In this document: positions 19,006-23,843 of the stretch, in pieces
How the letters are laid out: each line of letters starts with the position of its first letter
How positions within the stretch are numbered: position 1 is the first letter of the stretch
From: Chloroflexota bacterium
GTDB taxonomy: Bacteria; Chloroflexota; Dehalococcoidia; Tepidiformales; Tepidiformaceae
Assembly: GCA_016234445.1 (NCBI GenBank)
Contig: JACRBT010000001.1
Location: 62,001 to 126,000 of the forward strand
Reading direction: 5' to 3'
Length of the DNA: 64,000 nt
The notes under the pieces: model-generated
What the model was told of the DNA's origin: nothing
Database searches by the model: none
Seen by the model: only the letters and a program-made list of their open reading frames with translations
Translations under genes and position numbers: made by a program

Positions 19006-19604
19006 TGGCGGCCGAGCTTCGCGGAACGGTTGCGGGGCGATGGCGCCGGCGGCCGGTGGCCCCCGCATGGCTGCGCGAGGCGCTCTCCTGGCTCGGGATA
19101 GCGCTCGTCGGGGTCGCCGTCGCGGGGTTGGTGACTGTGGCAATGGCGCCACGGCTCTTTGGCTGGCAGTTCGTCGTCGTCCAGGGCGGGAGCATGGAAC
19201 CGACCATCGGCTTCGGGAGCGTCGCCGTGATGACGCGGCCAGACCGCGAACACCTCCACACAGGCGACATCGTGATGTTCAGCCGCGGCGGCCAGGTGGT
19301 CACGCACCGGATCGTCGCCATCTCCGCGGACGGCCGGCAACTGACGATGAAGGGTGACGCGAACGACGCCCCGGACCAGGGGACGATCTCCCCGGCGAGC
19401 GTCCGCGGTGAATTCGCCTTCGCTGTCCCAAAGGTGGGCTACTTCGTCCACTGGATGGGGACACAGCAGGGCTACATGGCGCTCATCCTGATCCCCGGTC
19501 TGGCGATCATCGCCATCGAGCTGGCCTCGATCGGCCGGAGTCTCCGCGCCGCCAGCCGCCGGCCCGACCCGGGCGACCTCGCCGCCGGCGGTGATCCACA
19601 ATGA
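19002..19604 (+). CDS. sipW: Signal peptidase I, SipW/ER type (Ser-His)
   Basis: 200 residues, a membrane signal peptidase with TM segments near residues 30-50 and 160-185. The catalytic Ser lies in VQGGSMEPTI near residue 64. The general base is His in VVTHRIVAI near 102, replacing the Lys of ordinary bacterial LepB, and an Asp motif KGDANDAPD follows near 119. Ser-His enzymes of this archaeal/eukaryotic type (SipW) process TasA-like precursors. Location directly downstream of three such precursors supports that substrate. Adjacent ATGs at 19002 and 19005 are both possible. It overlaps the next gene by 4 bp (ATGA). Confidence 0.92.
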   Translation: MMAAELRGTVAGRWRRRPVAPAWLREALSWLGIALVGVAVAGLVTVAMAPRLFGWQFVVVQGGSMEPTIGFGSVAVMTRPDREHLHTGDIVMFSRGGQVVTHRIVAISADGRQLTMKGDANDAPDQGTISPASVRGEFAFAVPKVGYFVHWMGTQQGYMALILIPGLAIIAIELASIGRSLRAASRRPDPGDLAAGGDPQ

Positions 19605-21853
19605 GTGCGGCGACGATGGGCATGCCGCGGGGGAAGCGCCATCTCTTCGGGCTGGCGGCGCGGCTCGCCGTGGTCCTTGGCGTGCTGGTGTTTGGCGCGG
19701 TCCTCGTCCACAACCGCGAACCGTTCGCCCCTTCCGTCTCGGCTGCCGCCGGCGACCCTCACATCGAGCTCGCCCCGGCCGGCACGCAATCGTTCGGCGC
19801 GACGATCGGTCCCATCTGGTCCATTGCCGACGGCGCCCCCGGCGTGGCGGTCACGGGCGGCATCCAGGTCCGCGTGACGAATCTCCCGCCCGACGCGACG
19901 GCCGCGCTGAGCGTCCGCGCCGACTATACGGCCAGCGCCGGCAACTCCGCGATGGCCGAGGCTGTCGTTGTCACGGCGATGACGCTCGACGGAGACGACC
20001 TGCTCCCCGCCTGGAGCGGCTGTACGTCGAGCCTCGGCCTCACGCTCGCGGACCTGAAGAACTGTTCCGCGCCGCCCTCGCTGCCGGTTCCCCCGGCCGT
20101 CGGCGCCCGGTTCGAGATGACCCTCACCATTGCCCGGGAGGCCAGCAACACCCTCCAGGGGATCTCGGCCGGGCCGTTCACGGTCATCTTCGGGCTCGCG
20201 GGCGACGCGCCGGAACCGACTCCTACGCCGACTTCGACGCCGACCCAAACCCCGACCGTCACGCCAACTTCAACGCCCACGCAGACAGCGACGGCGACGC
20301 CTGCACCCACGCAAACGCCGACGCCCGTGCCCCTAACACCGACGCCCGCGCCCATCCCGCAGCCGCCGCCGACCGGGAACCCACCGCAACCGGAGGTCAT
20401 CGCGCCAACAGCGAAGATCGTGCTGCGCTACAGCGTCCCCGTTGACGTCAGTCCATCGCTCTTCACGCTGACCGTCGGCGGCGAGGGCGGGGTCACGGGA
20501 CCCGGTCCGAGCCAGGCAACGGGCCCCGTGGGCGTCGCGAGCGGTCGGCCCATCACCTACACGGCGCCCGACAGCATCACCACCAGCAACAGCAAGATCA
20601 CGCTGGCGCTCGACGAAATCGTCTGCGTTTCGGACGTGCGGTCGCGGATTGCTGTTTCGAGCGTGCCCTCGTTCCAGCTGAGCTTCCTCGTGGACGGGGA
20701 GGTCGTCACCTGCACGGCGTACTACACCGCCGTCGCCGGTGCCATCACATCGGCGCCGGTACCAACGCCCAGCCCTGAGCCGCCCGCGGCCGAAGAACCG
20801 AAAGTGGCGCCTCGACCGCAGACCGATCGGCCGAGCATCATCCGCAACGTCCCCTCCTTCGGCGACTTCCTCAACAGCAGCCCGAAGGCTGCGAGTTCGA
20901 ACCTGGCACTGACGCTGGGCGTGGTCCTGCTCTTGCTCATCAGCTCGGGCCTGTTCAACCAGACGGTCGAAGAGAATCGCGACGACATCGAGGGCTTCTT
21001 CGAACGCTTCGCCGCTCCGCTTGTCGCGGTGGTCGCGTTCCTGGGTCGGACGTGGAAGCGGGTCGGAAGCGGGTCATCGCGGTTTAGGCGCATCGCCGTC
21101 CCGATTGGCGTCCTCATGCTCACCGGTCTCATCTACGGCAACCTTGAGCCGGGCTTCGGGTTCAACAGTAAGAGCGTCGTGGTGTTCACGAGCCTGGTGG
21201 TCAGCGGCGGCGTGGTGACCTACCTCTACGAAGGCGGCGAAGCCTGGCTCACCCGCCGGCGGTTGGGCCTCCAGGCGGGAGTCCGGCTCTACCCCGCGTC
21301 GATCATGATCGCGGTGGTGTCCGTGGCCCTCTGCCGCGCGGTCGGCTTCCAGCCGGGCATCGTCTTCGGGTTCATCGCCTCGAGCGTCCTCCTTGTGCCG
21401 GCGAATGTTACGAAGAAGGACTCCGGCTCGGTGCTCATCTGGCCCGCCTTGAGCCTGCTGGCCGTGAGCCTCGGAGCCTGGATGCTCGTTGGCCCCCTGC
21501 GCGACCTCGGCGAAGGGCACGATGGGATCCTGGCGGCATTGCCGGAGTCGATCGCCGTGGCGGTCTTCATCGTGGGCATGGAGGGTCTCTTCTGCACGAT
21601 GGTCCCGCTCAAGTTCATGGACGGAAAGCGGCTCTGGGACTGGAACAAGTGGGTCTGGCTGGCTGTCTACGTGAGCGTTGCCTACCTGTTCTTCCACATC
21701 CTCTTCTACCAGGAGGAGGCCTACTTCGACGCCCTCCGGAACACGAAGGTCATCGGCGCCGGAGCGATCTTCGGCGCCTACCTGCTGGTGACCTTCGGCA
21801 CCTGGGGATTCTTCCTCGTGAGGAACCGGGGCGAGGGCGGACACCCGGCCTAG
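19601..21853 (+). CDS. Large ecto/multi-TM protein of the fibre operon, unknown function
   Basis: 750 residues. An N-terminal signal or anchor (LFGLAARLAVVLGVLVFGAV) is followed by a beta-rich ectodomain to about residue 205. A Pro/Thr-rich repeat linker (about 207-267) made of TPTPT-like units comes next, then a second ectodomain (about 270-385). From about 425 the protein has some nine hydrophobic helices, with a distinctive GFQPGIVFGFIASSVLLV segment near 585. The gene overlaps the SipW gene by 4 bp (ATGA), so the two are translationally coupled. A role in anchoring, exporting or sensing the fibres is plausible but not supported by a recognised domain. Confidence 0.75.
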   Translation: MSAATMGMPRGKRHLFGLAARLAVVLGVLVFGAVLVHNREPFAPSVSAAAGDPHIELAPAGTQSFGATIGPIWSIADGAPGVAVTGGIQVRVTNLPPDATAALSVRADYTASAGNSAMAEAVVVTAMTLDGDDLLPAWSGCTSSLGLTLADLKNCSAPPSLPVPPAVGARFEMTLTIAREASNTLQGISAGPFTVIFGLAGDAPEPTPTPTSTPTQTPTVTPTSTPTQTATATPAPTQTPTPVPLTPTPAPIPQPPPTGNPPQPEVIAPTAKIVLRYSVPVDVSPSLFTLTVGGEGGVTGPGPSQATGPVGVASGRPITYTAPDSITTSNSKITLALDEIVCVSDVRSRIAVSSVPSFQLSFLVDGEVVTCTAYYTAVAGAITSAPVPTPSPEPPAAEEPKVAPRPQTDRPSIIRNVPSFGDFLNSSPKAASSNLALTLGVVLLLLISSGLFNQTVEENRDDIEGFFERFAAPLVAVVAFLGRTWKRVGSGSSRFRRIAVPIGVLMLTGLIYGNLEPGFGFNSKSVVVFTSLVVSGGVVTYLYEGGEAWLTRRRLGLQAGVRLYPASIMIAVVSVALCRAVGFQPGIVFGFIASSVLLVPANVTKKDSGSVLIWPALSLLAVSLGAWMLVGPLRDLGEGHDGILAALPESIAVAVFIVGMEGLFCTMVPLKFMDGKRLWDWNKWVWLAVYVSVAYLFFHILFYQEEAYFDALRNTKVIGAGAIFGAYLLVTFGTWGFFLVRNRGEGGHPA

Positions 21854-21995: not shown

Positions 21996-23843
21996 TCAGG
22001 CGTCGAGGCGCCAGTTCAGCTCGTAGACCCGCATCGGTTCTTCGAAGCCGCGCAGGGGAAACTCGCCCCTGTCCGCGAAGAGGAAGCCCTTGCCCGCGAC
22101 AAGCTCGCGGACGACGTTCGCCACGAAGATCTCGCCACCAGCGGCCTTCGACGCGATCCGGGCGGCGAGGATGACGGCCGTCCCGAAAAGGTCTTCATCT
22201 TCGGCGATAGGCTCGCCGGCGTTGATGCCGACGCGGATGGTGAGGGTCTCGTCGCCCTTCGCGCTGTAGTCGGCCAGGGCGGTCTGGAGCGAGATGGCGC
22301 ACCGGAGCGCCCGTTGGGCTGACGTGAAGGAGGCGAGGAACCCATCGCCCATCGTCTTCACTTCGCTGCCGCCGAACTCGCGGAGAGCTTCGCGGGTCAT
22401 GCGCTCATGGTCGCGGAGAAGCTTGCGGCCCTTTTCGTCGCCGAGGCGCTGCATCATCGCCGTGTGGCTTTCAAGGTCGGTGAAGAGGAGCGTTCGGAGG
22501 GACTCGTTGCCGTCGCCGCTGGACTGCTCGTCGCGGACCGCGGACCCGTCCTTTGCCGCGGCGCCCATCTTCAGGTTCTGCTCGACCTGGCGTTCGGCGA
22601 GTTCGTCGTTTCGATAGGCCAGGGTCACGCGGCGCTCGTCCGCGGTCGCGACATCGTCACGGCTAAGCCAGAAGTCGCGGCGGCGGGGGGCATCGACCTT
22701 GAAGAAGCTGCCACTCGACGAGACTTCGCGGACCCTGCCAATCTGCTTGCTGTCGCGGGTGAAGATCGGGGCGCCAAGTGTGAGGGGAATGGCGACCGGC
22801 GCTTCGGCCGGCGAGGCGGCACCGGAAACGCGCCCAAGTTCGGCATGGAAGGCAGCGGCGCTGGCGGGACGGTCTTCGGGCCTGGGCGAGATCAGCGATC
22901 GGAGCAAAGACTCCAGCTGGAGCGTGATGCTCCCGTTCAGGCGGCGGATAGAGCCGGTGCCCCAGTTGGCGTACTCCTTCTCTGCCGTGTCGGGGGCAGT
23001 GTAGGGCGGACGGCCGGTGAGCATTTCGAAGAGCACACAGCCCATCGAGAAAACGTCGCTTCGCGGGTCGAGGTGTTCCCCTCGAAACTCCTCCGGCGGC
23101 GAGTACGGTGAAAGGTAGGCGGCGTCCGCCTCGTTTCGGTCGAGGCCGACGGTAAGGCCGAAGTCGCCGAGATGAGGGCGGCCCGCCGCGGTAAACCAGA
23201 TATTGCCGGGCTTGATGTCGCGGTGGGTGACGCCCTTGGTGTGGGCGAATTCCAGCGCTTCCACGAGAGCCGTCGCGATCTGAAGAGCCCGGTGGACGCC
23301 AATGCCGCGGGCGCCGGATTCTGCCATCAGGTCGGCGAGAGAGCCCCCGGACATGAACTGGGCGACGATGTAGGGAGTGCCGTTGTCGTCGCCGACGTCG
23401 TAGGTGGTGACGATGTAGGGGTGCTCGCCGAGACGGGCGATGGCGCGAATGTCGTGCCAGAGGCGGGTGGTGGCTTCCGCGTCCAATCCCACGGTGTCGA
23501 TGGTGGTGAAGGCAACGTCCCGTTCGACAATCTTGTCATGGGCCAGGTAGACCGCCTTCCGGCCGAGGCGGCCAAGCGTCTGGCGGACGACGTACCGGCC
23601 GGAGAGGAAGCCTTCCCCGCGTTCGTGGGCCGCGGAGGCGGGACCGGAGGACTCGCCCGGCCCCTCGCGCTCCATCCGCCGGCGGGCCGCCGCGAGGAAT
23701 GAAGCGGCGTCGGCATCGTCGGGGTCGAGGTCCAGCACCTCCTGCGCAAGGTCACGTACACCGGACCAGGAGGCCGCGGCGACGGCGGCTTCGATCTCTT
23801 CGAAAAGGGCGTCGATTCGCTTTTGGACACGTGGGGTGGGCAT
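21996..23843 (-). CDS. Degenerate Ser/Thr kinase-PRC-class III cyclase fusion
   Basis: 615 residues. A short N-terminal helical region is followed by a kinase-like domain (about 83-345): HRDIKPGN (His207, Arg208, Asp209) and DFG (227-229) are intact. The VAIK lysine position reads VAFT (Thr113), and the expected helix-C Glu region has no clear equivalent. A PRC-barrel/DUF2171-like segment (about 385-430, GAPIFTRDSKQIG) links to a class III nucleotide cyclase domain. That domain has metal Asp residues in LFTDLESHT and KTMGDGFLASF, while the Asn of VNxAAR reads VILAARI. It resembles kinase/cyclase fusion regulators. A TATTAT box lies 10 nt upstream of the start. Ligand unknown. Confidence 0.85.
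   Translation of the reverse strand: MPTPRVQKRIDALFEEIEAAVAAASWSGVRDLAQEVLDLDPDDADAASFLAAARRRMEREGPGESSGPASAAHERGEGFLSGRYVVRQTLGRLGRKAVYLAHDKIVERDVAFTTIDTVGLDAEATTRLWHDIRAIARLGEHPYIVTTYDVGDDNGTPYIVAQFMSGGSLADLMAESGARGIGVHRALQIATALVEALEFAHTKGVTHRDIKPGNIWFTAAGRPHLGDFGLTVGLDRNEADAAYLSPYSPPEEFRGEHLDPRSDVFSMGCVLFEMLTGRPPYTAPDTAEKEYANWGTGSIRRLNGSITLQLESLLRSLISPRPEDRPASAAAFHAELGRVSGAASPAEAPVAIPLTLGAPIFTRDSKQIGRVREVSSSGSFFKVDAPRRRDFWLSRDDVATADERRVTLAYRNDELAERQVEQNLKMGAAAKDGSAVRDEQSSGDGNESLRTLLFTDLESHTAMMQRLGDEKGRKLLRDHERMTREALREFGGSEVKTMGDGFLASFTSAQRALRCAISLQTALADYSAKGDETLTIRVGINAGEPIAEDEDLFGTAVILAARIASKAAGGEIFVANVVRELVAGKGFLFADRGEFPLRGFEEPMRVYELNWRLDA

Follow-up and report, generated by a model that had tools for sequence, protein, structure and literature searches.

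A clade of bacterial Hanks-type kinases with a WNK-like lysine exchange and its eroded member fused to a class III cyclase

A gene from a Chloroflexota bacterium raises the question of how a protein kinase domain may work without the lysine of its VAIK motif. The gene lies on a stretch of 64,000 nucleotides (contig JACRBT010000001.1, positions 62,001 to 126,000; here called the window) and encodes a kinase-cyclase fusion, P0001. A first-pass annotation, made from the letters of the DNA, had offered two readings of this protein: a pseudokinase sensor regulating a divergent cyclase, or a kinase that uses a displaced lysine. The features of the gene are listed below in window coordinates, with residue numbers of P0001.

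21996..23843, minus strand: kinase-cyclase fusion gene, protein P0001 (translation from 23843 gives 615 amino acids plus stop; Pfam)
23619..23843, minus strand: N-terminal helical region, residues 1-75, common to the N-termini of family members
22824..23600, minus strand: protein kinase domain, about residues 82-340 (Pfam, AlphaFold2 model, best matches PknA, PknB and Stk1)
23550..23576, minus strand: glycine loop LGRLGRKAV, residues 90-98, with Leu93 at Gly52 in PKA numbering (alignment)
23556..23558, minus strand: codon of Lys96, the displaced lysine at the third glycine, PKA position 55 and WNK1 Lys233 (alignment)
23505..23507, minus strand: codon of Thr113 at the VAIK lysine position, PKA position 72 and WNK1 Cys250 (alignment, including to PknB)
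23451..23453, minus strand: codon of Asp131 at the helix-C Glu position (the other 62 family sequences keep Glu)
23202..23225, minus strand: catalytic loop HRDIKPGN, residues 207-214, intact
23157..23165, minus strand: intact DFG, residues 227-229; the activation segment after it is shortened
22524..22796, minus strand: linker, about residues 350-440, PRC/DUF2171-like strands and then a long helix (weak evidence)
22008..22505, minus strand: class III cyclase domain, about residues 447-612 (Pfam and alignment)
22170..22172, minus strand: codon of Ile558 at the Asn of VNxAAR (alignment)

Pfam assigned Pkinase (PF00069) to residues 85-333 (E 1.5e-36, 126.6 bits against a cut-off of 31.7) and Guanylate_cyc (PF00211) to residues 451-609 (E 3.8e-17, 62.9 bits against a cut-off of 21.9). 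Residues 1-75 gave a weak TPR_14 match only (E 0.13, below the cut-off) and short matches elsewhere in the same genome. The linker matched DUF2171 at E 0.043, also below the cut-off, and the same linker in a relative (L012) matched PRC at E 0.0076; a single-sequence model of the P0001 linker reached a pLDDT of 66.7. An AlphaFold2 model of the window kinase (residues 70-350, with 23 viral-contig kinases; pLDDT 87.3, pTM 0.87) found its best structural matches in PknB, PknA (Z 30.7) and Stk1. Such bacterial Hanks kinases, the best matches of P0001 by sequence as well as by model, resemble it in fold and overall sequence, but unlike P0001 they keep the VAIK lysine. The domain combines the fold, the profile match, the HRD Asp (Asp209), the catalytic-loop Asn (Asn214) and the DFG Asp (Asp227) of a Hanks-type (ePK-like) kinase with the loss of the VAIK lysine. 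By their NCBI name, TOMM system kinase/cyclase fusions (TIGR03903) are one-chain fusions as well. P0001 scored 85.5 bits against the cut-off of 705.75 for this family and is ruled out as a member, and its own genome contains no TIGR03903 match over the cut-off.

Alignment with PknB put Thr113 at the VAIK lysine position, as the annotation had proposed, and bore out its statement that HRDIKPGN and DFG are kept. The annotation had also noted the lack of a clear helix-C Glu. The Glu is indeed absent, but Asp131 at this position is a conservative substitution. The same alignment revealed a feature that the annotation had missed, namely Lys96 at the third glycine of the glycine loop. This is position 55, where the lysine of WNK kinases stands in for VAIK Lys72 (PMC1821047).

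To place this residue in context, we compared 148 distinct kinase domains, 146 of which are readable at both columns 55 and 72 (row L011 is unreadable). Lys55 is combined with a residue other than Lys at position 72 in 63 of these domains, and Lys72 with a residue other than Lys at position 55 in the other 83, which were top matches or chosen by eye rather than drawn at random. None of the 146 carries both lysines or neither. The exchange corresponds to a Fisher p of 6.7e-43, a value that does not represent independent evidence since the rows are related. Residue 72 in the 63 sequences, referred to as the Lys55 family, is Ala (47), Ser (14), Thr (1) or Cys (1). The conservation of Thr113 among relatives, a check that the annotation had suggested, thus amounts to a small residue at the VAIK position in 63 of 63 sequences. 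The 83 ordinary kinases carry Ala, Gly or Ser at position 55 and keep Lys72. More telling than this p value is the pattern inside the family: Lys55 is invariant (63/63), while its neighbors 54 and 56 vary, as does the beta-3 lysine at 75, and the helix-C Glu is kept in 62 of the 63 sequences, the HRD Asp, Lys168, N171 and the DFG Asp in all 62 that cover these sites. Two Thr columns of the activation segment are conserved in 61 of 62. DFG is found in 61 of 62 members; the remaining one, L097 (G017), contains DLG as WNK does. Among the 60 places listed from the class search, G490:C83 and G399:C107 were left out, and L125 is without a glycine loop. The 9.2-Mb genome of L011 (G656) yielded 105 kinase matches at E 1e-40. 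Since the start of P0001 agrees with the N-terminus of family members ('..RIQRRIDALLDEAE') and the lysine-column exchange is common to 62 other sequences, the Thr113/Lys96 state appears not to stem from a reading error.

The comparison with WNK was based on the WNK1 kinase domain sequence (identical to PDB 5W7T). Two separate profiles, one of the Lys55 family and one of ordinary bacterial kinases, both aligned WNK1 Lys233 with Lys96 and Cys250 with Thr113. With this alignment and the invariance of Lys55, the displaced lysine is the better supported of the annotation's two readings as far as the family is concerned. As in WNK1 and WNK3 (PDB 5O21), the VAIK lysine is replaced by a small residue, a lysine occupies the third loop glycine, and the helix-C Glu, the HRD motif and the metal Asp are kept. 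The bacterial family differs from WNK in having mostly Ala or Ser instead of Cys at position 72, and DFG instead of DLG, the chloride-site motif. In WNK kinases, DLG plays a role in chloride binding. The likeness does not extend to descent: the family is nested among bacterial kinases next to a sister with Lys72, and WNK1 scores higher with the ordinary bacterial profile (148.8 bits) than with the Lys55-family profile (125.9 bits). The placement of WNK1 in the IQ-TREE tree is unreliable (branch 5.85). WNK3 5O21 ranked 33rd among the structural matches of the window kinase (Z 27.3), and because it lies there amid other kinases, this match shows a shared fold only.

A FastTree tree of 144 domains recovered the Lys55 family as one clade. 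An IQ-TREE tree of 54 rows, calculated with both trait columns removed, supported this clade at 98/96 and joined it to its sister, L122, at 100/98. L122 keeps Gly55 and Lys72: it reads GEGGKGIVF ... VAIKVIK, compared to GEGGKKRVY ... VAFALIK in a typical family member. Since the sister keeps the ordinary lysine, we conclude that the swap arose inside bacterial kinases, independently of WNK. Since all 63 sequences form one clade, it counts as one event and not as repeated covariation. The annotation would have taken orthologues with a normal VAIK lysine as a sign of lineage-specific decay; none exists inside the clade, and only the sister L122 has this residue. With a whole clade lacking the VAIK lysine, lineage-specific decay is ruled out as the origin of Thr113.

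Relatives were searched in 301 genomes of the window's phylum, 393 of its class and 235 of the phylum of a Myxococcales genome. The scores of Lys55 relatives were well set apart from those of ordinary kinases. Matches occurred in 34 of the 393 class genomes (E 1e-85) and in 5 of the 235 genomes from the phylum of the Myxococcales genome (E 1e-80); we infer that the two phyla differ. One of these five, L140, adjoins a sequence from the window's class in the tree and lies on a 5.7-kb contig, and may for these reasons be contamination. The other four form a branch of their own, and one of them sits on a 124-kb contig. A scan of genome contigs with P0001 returned a single match, one partial Myxococcales kinase. 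Plasmid searches gave no record at 60% identity or above, and the Rubrobacter sequence L129, from the plasmid matches listed, is an ordinary kinase. A scan of viral contigs with the family alignment gave no relative. Kinases from these contigs nevertheless bear on the meaning of Lys55: eight of 49 readable rows (duplicates kept) carry Lys at both position 55 and the VAIK position, which means that Lys55 alone is no proof of replacement. These eight (L210, L211, L213, L223, L225, L231, L233 and L243) are mostly of the type GGQKxVF ... VVLKL and possibly represent an intermediate state of the lysine move. Three of the 49 rows have neither lysine (two with Arg72, one doubtful). The viral-contig kinase L206 has Lys55 and an ambiguous VAIK region (GMGSEKLVI ... 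RVLNIRL); it may be a second Lys55 case or an alignment shift to Arg72.

The genome of P0001 also encodes a paralogue of 1477 residues that consists of a kinase, AAA_16, TPR and a class III cyclase. Of 20 further stretches, 11 (L252-L257, L259, L262, L263, L265 and L270) contain a relative of this paralogue type with a C-terminal cyclase over at least part of its length. L264 contains one more, cut through by the contig end, L258, L260, L261 and L271 have long ORFs with no cyclase detected, and L266-L269 are shorter kinases without a cyclase, L266 being the sister. Most of the long relatives compared join their kinase to a STAND-type ATPase, TPRs and a class III cyclase. P0001 has kept the family N-terminus and the kinase, and carries the PRC/DUF2171-like linker in place of the ATPase and TPRs. 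No full-length orthologue of P0001 was seen among 60 relatives. Genome G001 encodes a linker and cyclase without a kinase (L012 1249-2274, plus strand, 55% identity). The fusion gene in the window neighbors a gene for a 750-residue protein without a Pfam match (19601-21853, plus strand). A gene that is similar by eye (L012 2384-3760, plus strand) stands beside the kinase-less linker-cyclase of G001; the two neighbors are arranged in tandem in G001 and tail to tail in the window.

As the overall best explanation of these observations, we consider it likely that P0001 belongs to a bacterial clade with a relocated lysine, and that the window copy is a derived member that regulates an active cyclase. 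No other member of the Lys55 family is as eroded as the window copy, which departs from the consensus at 21 of 63 near-invariant family sites, compared to 7 of 62 in the next most divergent member and a median of 1. P0001 has lost the second loop glycine and the activation-segment Thr residues in addition to the Glu to Asp change in helix C. Its activation segment comprises 25 residues, as opposed to 29 in 55 of 61 scored family members (five longer lengths result from the search expression running past the segment end). The protein retains Lys96, Asp209, Lys211, Asn214 and Asp227, but the chance that all five catalytic sites escape under the loss rate of P0001 is about 0.12, which makes their retention weak support for function. 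With this chance and 21 sites changed, the window copy could be a dead pseudokinase. The pseudokinase sensor of the annotation, although not favored for the family, is therefore possible for this one protein. A related scenario, which we regard as possible if somewhat doubtful, is that decay is confined to the window copy: a recent fusion or relic in which the kinase half drifts and the cyclase alone is under selection. This would account for the changed sites, the short activation segment, the lack of a full-length orthologue among the 60 relatives and the kinase-less linker-cyclase of G001. It is harder to reconcile with a frame that is intact across 615 codons and, as a weak point given the chance above, with the five retained residues.

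We find it unlikely that the entire Lys55 family consists of pseudokinases, in which the loss of the VAIK lysine ended transfer, Lys55 merely binds nucleotide, and the domain either senses ATP or acts as a scaffold for the ATPase and cyclase. Families whose VAIK lysine is replaced are described in a 2025 review of bacterial pseudokinases (PMC12599244). The three-residue motif rule in this review would label the Lys55 family as pseudokinases, and basic residues in the active site are thought to aid ATP binding without the VAIK lysine (PMC12599244). However, the joint conservation of the HRD Asp, Lys168, N171, the DFG Asp, the helix-C Glu and the two Thr columns is expected of an active enzyme, and WNK kinases with the same lysine layout are active (PMC1821047, PMC4718504). 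The Lys55 family shares the replaced VAIK lysine with the families ActPs1-3, GLW, CP1, DYD, DLHK of the review, and differs from DYD (Arg at the VAIK position, no helix-C Glu), DLHK (degraded DFG, beta-2 arginines) and ActPs2 (Arg at the VAIK position, HRD Asp lost). By the descriptions in those parts of the review on which we draw, none of its families joins an intact HRD, DFG and helix-C Glu with Lys55 (PMC12599244). A further parallel is CAK-chloro, a subfamily of the choline/aminoglycoside-kinase-type CAK kinases, which has lost Lys72 and has a basic residue at position 55, proposed as a WNK-like charge shift (Kannan et al. 2007, PMC1821047). Unlike the Lys55 family, CAK-chloro combines Arg55 with Met72, has Phe in place of the helix-C Glu and is not Hanks-type (PMC1821047). 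In 2007, the same paper singled out WNK as the one functional ePK family that lacks the VAIK lysine. Our literature search, which included TOMM kinase/cyclase fusions and the domain architecture, found no bacterial ePK described as having such a lysine exchange.

The cyclase half of P0001 is probably a working adenylyl cyclase, as predicted from its catalytic residues. It keeps the metal-binding Asp456 and Asp500, in agreement with the annotation, as well as the substrate pair Lys496/Asp551 and the transition-state Arg562. Lys496 and Asp551 align with the adenine-type Lys/Asp pair of Ma1120. The closest relatives are alpha/beta-hydrolase-cyclase proteins with 60-71% identity (one of them, L014, was Pfam-scanned). 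The annotation had correctly noted Ile (Ile558) for the Asn of VNxAAR and on this basis called the cyclase divergent. The comparison with other cyclases does not support this label. Of 33 distinct cyclase domains from the loci, 32 are readable at the Asn column, with Ile in 16 (including that of P0001), Asn in 7, Val in 5 and Gln in 4. Ile occupies this column in all 12 rows with at least 65% identity; at 60-62% identity one fragment has Gln and one row Val. Asn, which the annotation had considered for orthologues, does appear in the comparison, but only in more distant cyclases. The column holds Ala in Ma1120 and His in Rv1900c/LipJ. Rv1900c is an active cyclase. P0001 shares with both proteins the metal Asp pair, the Arg and a residue other than Asn at this position; unlike either, it has Ile and is fused to a kinase and a PRC-like linker. 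We therefore reject the idea, very improbable in our estimate, that Ile558 renders the cyclase catalytically dead. Most class III cyclases do conserve the transition-state Asn (PMC4215837), but the close relatives of P0001 have Ile, and wild-type Ma1120 is active with Ala and becomes less active upon exchange of this Ala for Asn (PMC4215837).

Hardly credible is the replacement of the VAIK lysine by a different lysine, either at beta-3 +3 (position 75) or at loop position 54: Lys occurs at 75 in 47 of 63 members and Lys or Arg at 54 in 49 of 63, but P0001 itself has Asp116 at the former and Arg95 at the latter. In other members, position 75 can be Asn, Arg, Asp or Ala, and position 54 can be Gln, Met, Thr or Val; the Lys72-bearing sister L122 also has Lys at both positions. 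We rejected both candidates since 55 alone is invariant in the family.

According to the relocated-lysine explanation, the lysine that contacts the ATP phosphates would have shifted, in a bacterial Hanks-type clade, from beta-3 (VAIK) to the third loop glycine, as in WNK. In most members, Lys55 would probably reach the phosphates, since the former site of the lysine is occupied by a small residue, and pair with the helix-C Glu in the geometry that we infer; the HRD Asp, N171 and the DFG Asp would then act as usual. Because most of the long relatives compared combine the kinase with a STAND-type ATPase, TPRs and a cyclase, the state of the kinase is probably coupled to cAMP output. The window protein would be a derived copy, in which the PRC-like linker connects the kinase with a cyclase like those of alpha/beta-hydrolase-cyclase proteins. 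Its kinase would most likely still bind ATP and regulate an active adenylyl cyclase, and would itself be weakly active at best. From sequence, we predict that the Lys55 family is probably an active, independently evolved WNK-type kinase, and that the window copy, which may be weak or regulatory, probably binds ATP and regulates a working adenylyl cyclase. We lean slightly toward the broader proposal that an active Hanks clade in at least two phyla evolved WNK-type catalysis independently, from an L122-like ancestor (GGKG ... VAIK), and is wired to a STAND ATPase and a class III cyclase. We also speculate that the emptied, always-small lysine site might hold a regulatory ligand, as it holds chloride in WNK.

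The Lys55 clade, a sister in the ancestral state and kinases with both lysines would together make the path by which a catalytic residue relocates testable. If the family is active, motif rules would miscall a kinase family as dead. In these proteins, a serine/threonine-type kinase is linked to cAMP synthesis in one chain.
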